Assembly (NCBI GenBank): GCA_019118745.1
Contig: DWYJ01000006.1
Location: 24,500 to 88,499, forward strand
Reading direction: 5' to 3'
Source: Candidatus Desulfovibrio gallistercoris
GTDB lineage: Bacteria; Desulfobacterota; Desulfovibrionia; Desulfovibrionales; Desulfovibrionaceae
Length of the DNA stretch: 64,000 bases
A program made the translations under genes and the position numbers. Numbering within the stretch: the first letter of the stretch is position 1; the number at the start of each line of letters is the position of its first letter. Below are positions 27,040 through 31,727 of the stretch, piece after piece. The notes under the pieces were generated by a model. It saw nothing but the letters and a program-made list of their open reading frames with translations. It ran no database searches and was not told the DNA's origin.

Positions 27040-28302
27040 CTAAAACAACTGCACGCCGCCGCACCAGTGATGCCGGACCCGGCCCTGCATCTCTTCGCCG
27101 AGGAAGGGCGTATTGGCGCTCTTGGAGTACAGGGTCTCAGGGCCCACCGTCCACCGCTCCTCCGGATCGAAGAGGAAGAAGTCCGCCGGGTCGCCGGGCT
27201 CGAAGCGGTTGCAGGGCAGGCCGAAGATCTCCGCCGGGCCGTAGCACCAGCGCTGATGCAGGAGGGCTTCGTCCCAGATGCCTTCGCGCACCAGCCGCCA
27301 AGTCAGCGGCAGGGCAAGGTCGAGGCCGGTGAAGCCCTTGGGGGCCTCGTCCAGGGTGCGTTCCTTCTCGTGCAGGGCATGCGGGGCGTGGTCGGTGCTC
27401 AACACGCCGAGGATGCCGTCCCGCACGGCCTGGCGCAGGGCCTCCCGGTCTTCGGGGCGGCGCAGCGGGGGGCTGACCTTGGCATTGGCGTTGTAGCCGC
27501 GCAGGGCGCTTTCATCGAGCATGAGGTAATGCGGGCAGGTCTCGGCCGTGATCTTGACGCCGCGCGCTCTGGCCCAGCGGAGCACATCCACGGAAAGGGC
27601 GGAGGAGACATGGGAGATGTGGATGGGGATATCCAGATATTCCGACAGCATGGCGTCGCGGGCCACTTGCACGGCCTCCCCGGCGGCGGGCTGTCCCTTC
27701 ACGCCGAGCTCGCCGCTGAGCTCGCCTTCGTTCATGACCCAGCCTCGGGCCAGGTCCGGGTCTTCGCAATGGTCCATGACCACCATGCCGAGATCGGCGG
27801 CGTATTCCATGACGCGGCGCATCATCTCGGCGCTGCTCACCGGGCAGCCGTCATTGGAGACGGCCACGCAGCCGGCCTCCTTCAGTTCGCCGAGCGGGGC
27901 CATCTCCTGCCCGGCAAGGCCCACGGTGGCGGCGGCCACGGGATAGAGGCGCGGCCCGTGGGGCCAGGCGGTGCGGGCCTTTTCCAGCATGTAACGGGTG
28001 ACGGCGGCCGTGTCGTTGACCGGGCGGGTGTTGGCCATGCACATGACCGCGCCGAAACCGCCATGCGCGGCGGCGGTGAGGCCGGTGACCACATCTTCCT
28101 TGTATTCGTAGCCGGGATCCCGAAAATGGGCGTGCACGTCGATGAAGCTGGGCATGAGCTGCAGGCCGTCGGCCTCGAAGACCTCACACCCTTCCGGGAG
28201 GGGCTGGTGTCCGGCCGGGGTCATGGTGAGCACGCGTCCGTCCCGGACGAGCAGGTCCACCGGGGCGTCAAGATGGCGGGCGTTTTTGATGCAGAGGGTC
28301 AT
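27040..28302 (-). CDS. pyrC: Dihydroorotase
   Basis: LMPSFIDVHAHFRDPGYEYKEDV, NTRPVND, STDHAPH; start set at 28302. Confidence 0.93.
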   Translation of the reverse strand: MTLCIKNARHLDAPVDLLVRDGRVLTMTPAGHQPLPEGCEVFEADGLQLMPSFIDVHAHFRDPGYEYKEDVVTGLTAAAHGGFGAVMCMANTRPVNDTAAVTRYMLEKARTAWPHGPRLYPVAAATVGLAGQEMAPLGELKEAGCVAVSNDGCPVSSAEMMRRVMEYAADLGMVVMDHCEDPDLARGWVMNEGELSGELGVKGQPAAGEAVQVARDAMLSEYLDIPIHISHVSSALSVDVLRWARARGVKITAETCPHYLMLDESALRGYNANAKVSPPLRRPEDREALRQAVRDGILGVLSTDHAPHALHEKERTLDEAPKGFTGLDLALPLTWRLVREGIWDEALLHQRWCYGPAEIFGLPCNRFEPGDPADFFLFDPEERWTVGPETLYSKSANTPFLGEEMQGRVRHHWCGGVQLF

Positions 28303-28304
28303 GA

Positions 28305-29273
28305 CTAGTCTCCATGCTGCGGGGCGGCGGCCCCTTCGTTGCGGGTAGCCAGAAGGTAGAGCACGGCCATACGGGTGGCCACGCCGGAGGACACCTGATC
28401 CAGCACGCGGCTGTGCGGGCCGTCCGCCACGGCGTCGGCGATCTCCAGGCCGCGGTTCATGGGGCCGGGGTGGAGCACCAGGGCATCGGGCCTGGCCTTG
28501 TCCAGCCGGGCGGGGGTCAGGCAGTAGCGCCGGGAATACTCGGTCAGATCCGGCAGCAGCCCGGCCTGCTGGCGTTCGAGCTGGAGGCGAAGGCACATGA
28601 CGGCGTCGCTGTCGCGCACGGCGGCATCCGGGTCGGCGACGACCTCGGTAGGCCAGTTGTGGACGCCCGCGGGCAGCAGGGTGCGCGGGGCGCAGAGGCG
28701 GACGCGCGCGCCCAGCAGGTTCAGGAGATGCACGTTGGAGCGGGCCACGCGGCTGTGGGCGATGTCGCCGAGGATGGTCACCACGCGTCCGCTGAAGTCG
28801 GTCCCCCAGTGCGCGCGCAGGGTCAGGCTGTCCAGCAGGGCCTGCGTGGGGTGGGCGTGCCAGCCGTCGCCGCCGTTGACGATGCCGCAGGGCAGGCGTT
28901 CGGCGAGGAAGCGCGCCGCGCCGCTGCTGGGGTGGCGGATGACGATGACGTCCGGGCTCATGGCTTGCAGGGTGAGGGCCGTGTCCTTGAGGCTCTCTCC
29001 CTTGTTGAGGCTGGACCCGGACTTGGCAAGGGAGTAGGTGTCCGCGGAGAGGCGCTTGCCCGCCACGTCAAAGGAGGTCTTGGTGCGGGTGCTGTTCTCC
29101 ACGAAAAAGAGGATGACGGTCTTGCCCTTGAGCGTGGGAACCTTCTTGACGGGGCGCTGGTTGATCTCCTGAAAGCTGGCGGCCACATCGAGGATGTGGA
29201 GGACATCCTCCCGGCTGAGCTGGGAGATGTCCAGCAGGTCCTTGTGCGTCCACTGATAGCGATTGTCGTTCAT
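28305..29273 (-). CDS. pyrB: Aspartate carbamoyltransferase catalytic subunit
   Basis: [56 protein letters not shown]. Confidence 0.95.
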
Positions 29274-29291
29274 GGCAGTGTGGGGCTGAAG

Positions 29292-29402
29292 TCAAAAAAA
29301 GCCCCGCTCGCGCGGGGATGGGACAAACAAAAAAAGGGAAGCGTTCCGTCGGGATACGGATTTGGGAAAATCAGCGGGAAAAGGGACGGTCGCGTGGTCC
29401 AT
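29292..29402 (-). CDS. Putative pyrB leader peptide (36 aa)
   Basis: MDHATVPFPADFPKSVSRRNASLFLFVPSPRERGFF*, translated through the terminator hairpin and stopping in its U-tract; not in the ORF track. Confidence 0.5.
   Translation of the reverse strand: MDHATVPFPADFPKSVSRRNASLFLFVPSPRERGFF
29294..29335 (-). promoter_or_regulatory. Candidate UTP-sensitive attenuator of pyrB-pyrC
   Basis: Minus: TTTTTTTGTTTGTCC tract, then CCCCGC-GCGA-GCGGGG-C-TTTTTTT intrinsic terminator, about 20 nt before the pyrB ATG. Confidence 0.65.
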
Positions 29403-29408
29403 AGGGCA

Positions 29409-29437
29409 ACGCTAGACCGGTGCGTCCGCTTTGTAAA
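29409..29437 (-). promoter_or_regulatory. Putative sigma70 promoter for pyrB
   Basis: TTTACA-17 nt-TAGCGT on the minus strand. Confidence 0.45.
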
Positions 29438-29562: not shown

Positions 29563-30432
29563 ATGAAACTTGTACAGACATATAATCGCAAACTGGCCGA
29601 GTCCGTCTGGTGGAACCTGCTCTGGCTCACGGTCGGCGCGCTGCTGGTCACCATCTGCATCCAGTCCGTGGCCACGCCGCACAACTTCGTGGCCGGGGGC
29701 ATCCTCGGCATGGCCTATCTGGTCTGGCACTGGACGGGCCAGCTGGATCTGCTGACCTGGTACCTGCTCCTGTCCGTGCCCATCTGGGTCTGGGGCTGGT
29801 TCTTCGTGGGGCGGCGCTTCCTGCTCTACACGGCCTACGGCACCATCTGCACCACGGTCTTCGGCATGTTCCTCAACGTGCAGATCCCGCTGCAGACGGA
29901 AGTCTACGCGGCGGTCATCGCCGGGGTGCTGCACGGCGCGGGCATGGGCATCATGCTGCGCACCCTGGGCAGCAGCGGCGGCACGGACATCATCGCCGTG
30001 GCCCTCAAGCAGCGCTGGAACGTGCCCATCGGGCAGTTCTCCTTCGGCGTCAATGCCGTGGTCTATCTGCTGGCGGGCTTCAGCCTGAACCTGGATCTCA
30101 TCGTGGCTTCCGTGCTGATGATGTTCATCTCGGCCAATACGCTGGAGTACGTGCTCGGCATGTTCAACCGGCGCAAGCTGGTGCTCGTCATCTCCGAGCG
30201 CGGCGAGGAGATCAGCGAGGCCATCTTGGTGACCGAACGTTTCGGCGTGACGCTCATGCGCGGCAAGGGGGCCTATTCCGGCGCGGACAAGGAGATCCTG
30301 CTGACCGTGACCAACAATGTGGTCCTCAAGCGGCTGGAGAACCTGGTGTACACCATCGACCCCGGCGCGCTCTTCATCGTGGAGAACACCTTTTACGTCT
30401 CCGGCGGGCAGTTCGCCCGGCGGGACAGGTGA
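29563..30432 (+). CDS. YitT family membrane protein
   Basis: HNFVAGGILGMAYL, LGSSGGTDIIA, C-terminal DUF2179-like FGVTLMRGKGAYSGADKEILLTVT. Confidence 0.9.
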   Translation: MKLVQTYNRKLAESVWWNLLWLTVGALLVTICIQSVATPHNFVAGGILGMAYLVWHWTGQLDLLTWYLLLSVPIWVWGWFFVGRRFLLYTAYGTICTTVFGMFLNVQIPLQTEVYAAVIAGVLHGAGMGIMLRTLGSSGGTDIIAVALKQRWNVPIGQFSFGVNAVVYLLAGFSLNLDLIVASVLMMFISANTLEYVLGMFNRRKLVLVISERGEEISEAILVTERFGVTLMRGKGAYSGADKEILLTVTNNVVLKRLENLVYTIDPGALFIVENTFYVSGGQFARRDR

Positions 30433-30512: not shown

Positions 30513-31727
30513 ATGTCCGACTGCCTTGTTATCCGTGCGCGAACCCTGGTGAGCATGGCAGGGGAGGCTCCCGCGCGCGGCGAACAGCTTTTTGCGCCCC
30601 TGCGCAAGCTGGATGACGCGGCGCTCGTCCTGGTGGACGGGCGGGTGGAAGAGGTCGTGAGCTGGAAGCGCTGCTCGCCGCCTTCCGGGGCTCTGGTGCG
30701 GGATCTGGGCGAGGTCTGCCTGGCTCCGGCGGTGATCAATGCCCACTGCCATCTGCAGCTCTCGCACCTGGCCGGGAAAACACGCTGGGGCGCGGGCTTC
30801 AGCGCCTGGCTGGAGAGCCTCATCCCCCATCTGCGGGAGCCGCTTTCGCGCGAGGCCATCGCCGAGGCCTGCGAGGATATGGTCGCCCGCGGCACCGGCC
30901 ACGTGGGGGATTTTGCCGGTGAGGGGTTGGCCCTCGTGGATGACGCGGCCCGGCGGGCCGGGTTGGGCGTCACGCATTTTTGCGAATGGTTCGGCATGGA
31001 TGCGCCGTTCATCGACGGCGGGCGTCCCTGGCCGCCGCGCTGCCGCCCCGCGCTGGAGCAGGACGACGACCGGCCGGTGGCGGACATCTCCGTGCCGCTG
31101 GAAGCGCGTTGCGCTCCGGCGGGGCATGCCCTGTATTCCACCGCGCCGGAGGTGCTGCGCGACGCGCGGCAATGGTGCGCGGACAAGGGCCGGGTCTTTG
31201 CCCTGCATCTTGCCGAATCGCCGGAGGAGAGCGAGCTGCTCCTGAACGGGAGCGGGCCGCTGGCCGAGCTTTACGCGGGCATCGTGCTGCCGGAGGACTG
31301 GCAGCCTCCGCGCCTGCGGCCGCTGGCCTGCGCCATGAAGCTCGGCCTCGTGGGCGCGGGGACGCTGGCCGTGCACGGGGTCCAGCTCGATGCGCAGGAG
31401 ATGACGGTGCTGGGGGCCTCCGGGGCGGCGCTCTGCCTCTGCCCGCGCTCCAACCGGCATCTGGCCGTCGGGGAAGCGCCGTTCCTTTCCGCCGTGGAGA
31501 ACAATGTCCTGTGCTGTCTGGGCACCGACGGACTGAGCTCCAATACGGATCTGGACGTGCGCAAGGAGGCGGTCTTCCTGCGCGAAGCCTGCGATGCGCC
31601 GCCGGAAGCCCTGTTGCGCCTCCTGATGGTCAACGCCGCGGAGGCCCTGCGCCTGCCCTCCACGGGGCGGCTGGAGCCGGGGCAGCCCGGCAGCTTCTGC
31701 GTCCTGCCGGAAGCGCTGAGTTTTTAG
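30513..31727 (+). CDS. Amidohydrolase family protein (aminofutalosine deaminase-like)
   Basis: VINAHCHLQLSHL, LHLAESPEE, AVHGVQLDAQEMTVL, CLGTDGLSSNTDLDV. Confidence 0.8.
   Translation: MSDCLVIRARTLVSMAGEAPARGEQLFAPLRKLDDAALVLVDGRVEEVVSWKRCSPPSGALVRDLGEVCLAPAVINAHCHLQLSHLAGKTRWGAGFSAWLESLIPHLREPLSREAIAEACEDMVARGTGHVGDFAGEGLALVDDAARRAGLGVTHFCEWFGMDAPFIDGGRPWPPRCRPALEQDDDRPVADISVPLEARCAPAGHALYSTAPEVLRDARQWCADKGRVFALHLAESPEESELLLNGSGPLAELYAGIVLPEDWQPPRLRPLACAMKLGLVGAGTLAVHGVQLDAQEMTVLGASGAALCLCPRSNRHLAVGEAPFLSAVENNVLCCLGTDGLSSNTDLDVRKEAVFLREACDAPPEALLRLLMVNAAEALRLPSTGRLEPGQPGSFCVLPEALSF

Follow-up and report, generated by a model that had tools for sequence, protein, structure and literature searches.

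Why should an intrinsic terminator stand directly in front of pyrB? In the window, the 64,000-nt stretch of Candidatus Desulfovibrio gallistercoris DNA that was analysed here, such a terminator lies between a predicted promoter and the start codon of a pyrB-pyrC pair, and because the next gene 5' of the pyrB leader (29563-30432, + strand) is divergent, it has no upstream operon to end. The original prediction read this region as a UTP-sensitive attenuator of the kind known from enterobacterial pyrBI. Its promoter, 36-codon open reading frame (ORF), U-rich tract and terminator are correct to the base, and the whole arrangement was found again in 54 of 75 genomes of the genus. We used comparisons among these genomes, and with genomes from elsewhere in the family, to ask what the element is likely to do.

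Anatomy of the pyrB leader and the mechanism it suggests

The features of the locus are listed in Table 1. The A of the leader ATG falls at the predicted +1, since the -10 hexamer would end at -7 and is followed by a gap of 6 nt. TAGCGT is a weak -10 hexamer, and for this reason the consensus sigma-70 scan of the window did not pick up the promoter; relatives nevertheless keep it. From the leader ATG to the hairpin there are 85 nt. The terminator was the best match of the local terminator scan, folds at -12.9 kcal/mol, and is still intact when the whole leader is folded. The first base of the leader stop codon is the last base of the terminator U tract, and the pyrB ATG (29273-29271) follows about 20 nt past this tract, with no Shine-Dalgarno sequence (SD) before it. 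The probable start of pyrC, taken from its ORF, overlaps the pyrB stop by 4 nt.

Table 1. Features of the pyrB-pyrC leader region, in window coordinates
Feature	Position	Strand	Remarks
Promoter TTTACA-17-TAGCGT	29409..29437	-	-35 TTTACA 29437-29432; 17-nt spacer; -10 TAGCGT 29414-29409
Leader start codon ATG	29400..29402	-	6 nt past the -10 hexamer, at the predicted +1; transcription start inferred from spacing
Leader ORF, 36 codons, MDHATVPFPADFPKSVSRRNASLFLFVPSPRERGFF*	29292..29402	-	Stop TGA 29294-29292
Small hairpin TCCGT-ATCCCG-ACGGA	29360-29345	-	Read in the sequence
U-rich tract TTCCCTTTTTTTGTTTGTCC	29321..29340	-	Just 5' of the terminator hairpin; putative UTP-sensitive pause region
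Intrinsic terminator (attenuator) CCCCGC-GCGA-GCGGGG-C-T7	29294..29317	-	Stem-loop 29317-29302, then C, then U7 29300-29294
pyrB, aspartate carbamoyltransferase catalytic subunit	28305..29273	-	NCBIfam NF002032, 380 bits (cut-off 263)
pyrC, dihydroorotase	27040..28308	-	TIGR00857, 362.6 bits (cut-off 279)

We think it likely that this leader is a pyrBI-type attenuator in which translation and UTP supply together set transcription of pyrB-pyrC. Transcription would start on the leader AUG or no more than about 2 nt from it, so that the leader mRNA would be leaderless, and RNA polymerase would make about 85 nt before entering the U-rich stretch and then the G+C hairpin with its U tract. When UTP is scarce, polymerase would slow in the U-rich stretch, allowing the first ribosome on the leader to catch up; a ribosome over the 5' arm of the hairpin would block hairpin formation, and pyrB-pyrC would be transcribed. 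With plentiful UTP, polymerase would outrun the ribosome, the hairpin would form and transcription would end. As a matter of anatomy and comparison, the coupling of termination to leader translation is well supported, and UTP is the likely signal.

Conservation of the promoter, start codon and terminator

The comparison covered the DNA upstream of pyrB from all 75 Desulfovibrio genomes in which pyrB was found and from 55 genomes of the family that belong to other genera. The strict test asked for TT[TG]ACA, 16-18 nt, TAnnnT or TAnnAA, 4-10 nt and ATG, followed by a hairpin with a U tract, and the 54 genus genomes mentioned above satisfy it. Throughout the 3.15-Mb genome that contains the window, this pattern occurs four times, one of them at pyrB. 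Between species, the 40 nt before the leader ATG share an identity of 0.66, as compared to 0.56 for shuffled sequence.

The distance between the -10 hexamer and the ATG was confined to a narrow range. It was 6 nt in 28 of the strict genomes, 7 nt in 15 and 8 nt in 11; gaps of 4, 5, 9 or 10 nt occurred in none of the 54, though the test permitted them. The suspicion, part of the original prediction, that the leader is leaderless gains backing from this fixed spacing, and the predicted leader mRNA is likely to be leaderless or nearly so, with no more than about 2 nt ahead of its AUG. A looser -10 test added four genomes of the leaderless type (G154, G218, G172, G164). In six others (G158, G212, G190, G183, G187, G177), the terminator is reached instead by a leader with an SD, and two further genomes (G152, G209) were judged to be of this kind by reading, for a total of six to eight.

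Leaderless initiation may be commoner in the genus. A TTGACA-type promoter stands 6-8 nt before the ATG of two genes, one encoding an ArsR-like regulator and one folK-like, both in the genome containing the window and in G210 (L242, L265, L246, L268); the names come from the translated starts alone. Among the other leaderless-promoter matches in seven genomes, most were ordinary genes or chance and none was recognizable as an attenuator. The pyrB gene itself carries an SD-like tetramer at -20 to -4 in 11 of the 54 strict genomes, against 21-24 of 37 window genes in a rough test.

With one and the same scan, a terminator hairpin within 320 nt upstream of pyrB was detected in 66/75 genomes of the genus and in 10/55 outside it. 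In the genus, its U tract mostly starts 22-32 nt before the pyrB ATG. The attenuator is absent from two complete or nearly complete genus genomes (G156, G159), and for at least two more (G185, G175) neither the scan nor reading revealed a terminator. In G156 (L116), whose PyrB is about 91% identical to that of the window, the promoter is kept and the hairpin lost, and the ATG lies farther from the -10 hexamer, behind an SD-like GAAGGAA.

Some leaders showed individual variations. In G207 (L115), the attenuator region is tandemly duplicated, with two CCCCGCGCGAGCGGGG hairpins, the U tract of the first being reduced to CTTTTCC, and the leader frame traverses both. In G165 (L146), the leader frame, by reading, continues in frame into pyrB, so that it could be an N-terminal extension of pyrB read through the terminator. 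Outside the genus, some of the genomes with a terminator (G073, G001, G008) also show, by reading, a short frame leading into it. Reading further showed that in several other genera of the family pyrB is preceded on the same strand by an amidohydrolase-like gene. The window has an amidohydrolase gene at 30513-31727 (+), for which the best model is an aminofutalosine deaminase family, below its cut-off; it is separated from pyrB by the divergent gene and faces away from it, whereas the similar gene of those genera stands directly before pyrB.

A U-rich tract precedes the terminator

Dereplication at 80% left 33 leaders, in which the 10 nt immediately 5' of the hairpin consisted of 46% T and 8.5% A. 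At the same positions before 39 ordinary Desulfovibrio terminators, T made up 17% and A 40% (Mann-Whitney p=1e-9 against the pyrB leaders). These controls came from the window and from fetched genus loci; one of them (L007) is itself a pyrB leader hairpin, too few to alter the result. The original prediction had named, as the outcome that would count against it, the loss of both the U tract and the terminator from related genomes; with the terminator in 66/75 genomes and this enrichment of T, the opposite was found. As judged by its composition, the U-rich tract is special to the pyrB site, as would be expected for UTP-sensitive pausing. Composition alone is no proof of UTP sensing, however, of which U-rich pausing is a necessary but unspecific sign.

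Might the attenuator be coupled to translation and yet not specific to UTP? The U-rich tract would then be a constitutive pause, and the leader would report translation capacity (ribosome supply, growth rate, ppGpp). Its anatomy would be the same as that of an attenuator that senses UTP, and such a reading could accommodate the variation of the U-rich tract between species, in which the maximum number of T in 12 nt ranges from 3 to 10. Leaderless initiation also responds to stress, according to the part of PMC7298713 that cites Vesper et al. 2011. However, a monitor of translation at large would not need to be confined to a pyrimidine gene, and this element sits at pyrB. It is absent from the carA leaders of six genus genomes that were read, where carA lies behind carB, and from the pyrE leaders of seven, where pyrE lies inside an operon; ordinary terminators of the genus lack the U-rich tract. 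We therefore consider a response to translation capacity in general unlikely, and retain UTP-responsive attenuation as the preferred reading.

In the terminator stem, pairs covary between species at several positions (C-G/G-C, G-C/C-G/T-A). Hairpin and U tract together have an identity of 0.77 between species, as compared to 0.56 for shuffled sequence. In minimum-energy folds of whole leaders, the terminator stayed intact in 24 of 26, and no antiterminator competing with it was evident in these folds. An amino-acid leader-peptide attenuator of the trp/his type was rejected: no competing antiterminator is evident, and the leaders share no conserved codon run. Phenylalanine is about twofold enriched in the leaders (0.086 versus 0.042), because of the U-rich tract. 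The original prediction also described a small hairpin upstream of the U-rich tract. Its sequence is present, but a role as a pause hairpin is unsupported: the region has no significant excess of structure (mean z -0.33, SEM 0.20), and by reading the hairpin is partly kept in close relatives of the window species only.

PyrR and the unconserved leader interior

Termination before pyr genes can also be controlled by PyrR binding to the leader, as in Bacillus, and this genome does encode a PyrR homologue, away from the pyr genes (L237, contig C100:10403-10927; 226.6 bits, cut-off 138). The original prediction that no PyrR-type site is apparent held for the RNA motif, while the protein itself turned out to be encoded elsewhere in the genome. 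Rfam returned no PyrR element in the region, its other matches there being at chance level, and a search of the 75 genus upstream regions with a Bacillus PyrR loop consensus gave no more matches than shuffled sequence.

The leader interior is not conserved either. It ranges from 31 to 142 nt in length across leaders and has a mean identity of 0.439 between species, against 0.427 for shuffled sequence. Since the interior is no more alike than shuffled sequence, selection seems to act neither on a leader peptide nor on a binding RNA. The terminator, moreover, has no competing structure in 24/26 folded leaders. Control of pyrB termination by PyrR is thus very unlikely. The role of PyrR may be limited to that of a uracil phosphoribosyltransferase; given that it is encoded, another pyrimidine regulator may also act in the cell.

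The leader reading frame is kept although its sequence is not

Conservation of the leader frame had been proposed as a check of the attenuator reading. We compared the 33 dereplicated leaders with dinucleotide-preserving shuffles, a test that leaves kinship beyond dereplication uncorrected and skips the first codon, since an ATG followed by A puts a TGA straight away in frame +1. Starting from the predicted ATG, the reading frame was open to the hairpin in 32/33 leaders, as compared to 20.9 expected (P=1.4e-6); frames +1 and +2 were open in 21/33 and 18/33, respectively. The check thus came out in favor of the prediction, and the pyrBI-style reading finds support in all three elements that relatives keep, namely the terminator, the U-rich tract and the leader frame.

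The leader stop codon lies within the hairpin in 18 of the 54 strict genomes, in the U tract in 11, overlapping the pyrB ATG in 12, and elsewhere downstream of the hairpin in 12. In the one remaining genome it precedes the hairpin, by 16 nt. From these positions, none of which precedes the hairpin by more than 16 nt, we infer that a ribosome translating the leader would mask it. The frame is retained through changes in the sequence. The window differs from its nearest relatives by an insertion that places its leader ATG in another frame, though one that still extends to the U tract. In G208, G210 and G205, which are close relatives, the frame crosses the terminator and ends at a TGA overlapping the pyrB ATG. 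In the G068/G149 group, by reading, a change in U-run length is offset about 20 nt further along by an indel of the opposite sign, so that the frame is restored at the hairpin.

These observations bear on whether the leader ORF might encode a small protein, or the transcript ending at the hairpin act as an independent small RNA, with read-through into pyrB being incidental. Termination at the hairpin does predict a short transcript of about 110 nt. However, the leader sequence is not conserved above the shuffled background, and while the frame is kept, the stop position and the peptide shift with indels, which makes a separate product highly improbable. Equally improbable is a start of pyrB transcription elsewhere, for example between the U tract and the ATG, with the terminator merely blocking stray transcription: the U tract is only about 20 nt from a pyrB that has no SD, but a consensus scan found no promoter between hairpin and pyrB, that gap is too short for a promoter with a -35 element, the divergent neighbor leaves nothing upstream in need of termination, and the -35/-10/ATG spacing is conserved.

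Implications

The open-licence literature that was searched yielded no description of a pyrB attenuator from Desulfovibrio, and an earlier report elsewhere is possible. If the preferred reading of the leader as a UTP-responsive attenuator is right, a classical enterobacterial control, detailed in E. coli, extends to a lineage of sulfate reducers in a different phylum, pared down to a form that conserves a promoter, an AUG, a U tract, a terminator and little else. Within our survey, which covered the Desulfovibrionaceae, the element occurs in only part of this one family, which belongs to another phylum than the enterobacteria, and on this basis it is probably convergent with enterobacterial pyrBI; nucleotide sensing without a dedicated regulator would then apparently have arisen by convergence. 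A more tentative possibility goes further: attenuation may have arisen independently in the Desulfovibrionaceae by way of leaderless initiation, with the leader ribosome also delivering translation to pyrB and so gating both transcription and translation. We propose the latter because pyrB usually lacks an SD and because the leader stop overlaps the pyrB AUG in a dozen species.

For annotation, the leader frame should not count as a small protein gene. The genus would also offer dozens of natural variants in which to study the rate of ribosome loading that a leaderless mRNA needs if the ribosome is to reach RNA polymerase within about 85 nt.

Comparison with known attenuators

Like the Desulfovibrio leader, the PyrR-dependent pyr attenuators of Bacillus provide pyrimidine-responsive termination before pyr genes, but the Desulfovibrio leader has neither the PyrR element nor the loop motif. 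In the rph-pyrE attenuator of E. coli, translation likewise ends near a terminator that precedes a pyr gene, and pausing occurs at U-rich sequence. The translated frame in that case belongs to a genuine gene, rph, in contrast to the Desulfovibrio pyrB leader with its unconserved sequence, and Desulfovibrio pyrE itself has no such element. A precedent for leaderless initiation is trpL of Sinorhizobium meliloti, where the first nucleotides of the attenuated transcript are the ATG of its leader ORF (PMC7298713). That system is a Trp attenuator, whereas no structure competing with the terminator was found in the Desulfovibrio pyrB leader.

The closest comparison is with pyrL-pyrBI of E. coli, in which ribosome movement over the pyrL leader suppresses the pyrBI terminator, aided by pause sites, as stated in the passages of PMC4824070 and PMC5021804 that cite Roland et al. 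1988. The U-rich tract of the Desulfovibrio leader would suit such pausing. We read the E. coli K-12 pyrL sequence directly for this purpose. The pyrL AUG has an SD, whereas the Desulfovibrio leader AUG lies at the predicted +1, 6-8 nt after the -10 hexamer; E. coli pyrB has its own SD, which Desulfovibrio pyrB usually lacks. The AATTTG-type initial U run of E. coli pyrBI, the site of reiterative transcription, has no consistent counterpart in the Desulfovibrio start region, and pyrB is followed by pyrI in E. coli and by pyrC in Desulfovibrio, no PyrI being found in the genome that contains the window. With the SD-led leader, the initial U run and pyrI all absent, the locus was rejected as a pyrBI operon proper of the E. 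coli type.

The two systems are nevertheless alike in the parts on which the proposed mechanism would depend. Both place a leader ORF before pyrB with a frame that reaches or passes the terminator, the stop in E. coli lying just before pyrB. Both have a U-rich tract before the hairpin, which in pyrL is TTTTTCTTCCC, and a G+C hairpin whose U tract starts about 30 nt before the pyrB ATG, formed in E. coli by the CCCCTC-AAT-CGAGGGG region with U8. The distance from the leader ATG to the hairpin is about 89 nt in E. coli pyrL and has a median of 88 nt (interquartile range 81-101) in Desulfovibrio.
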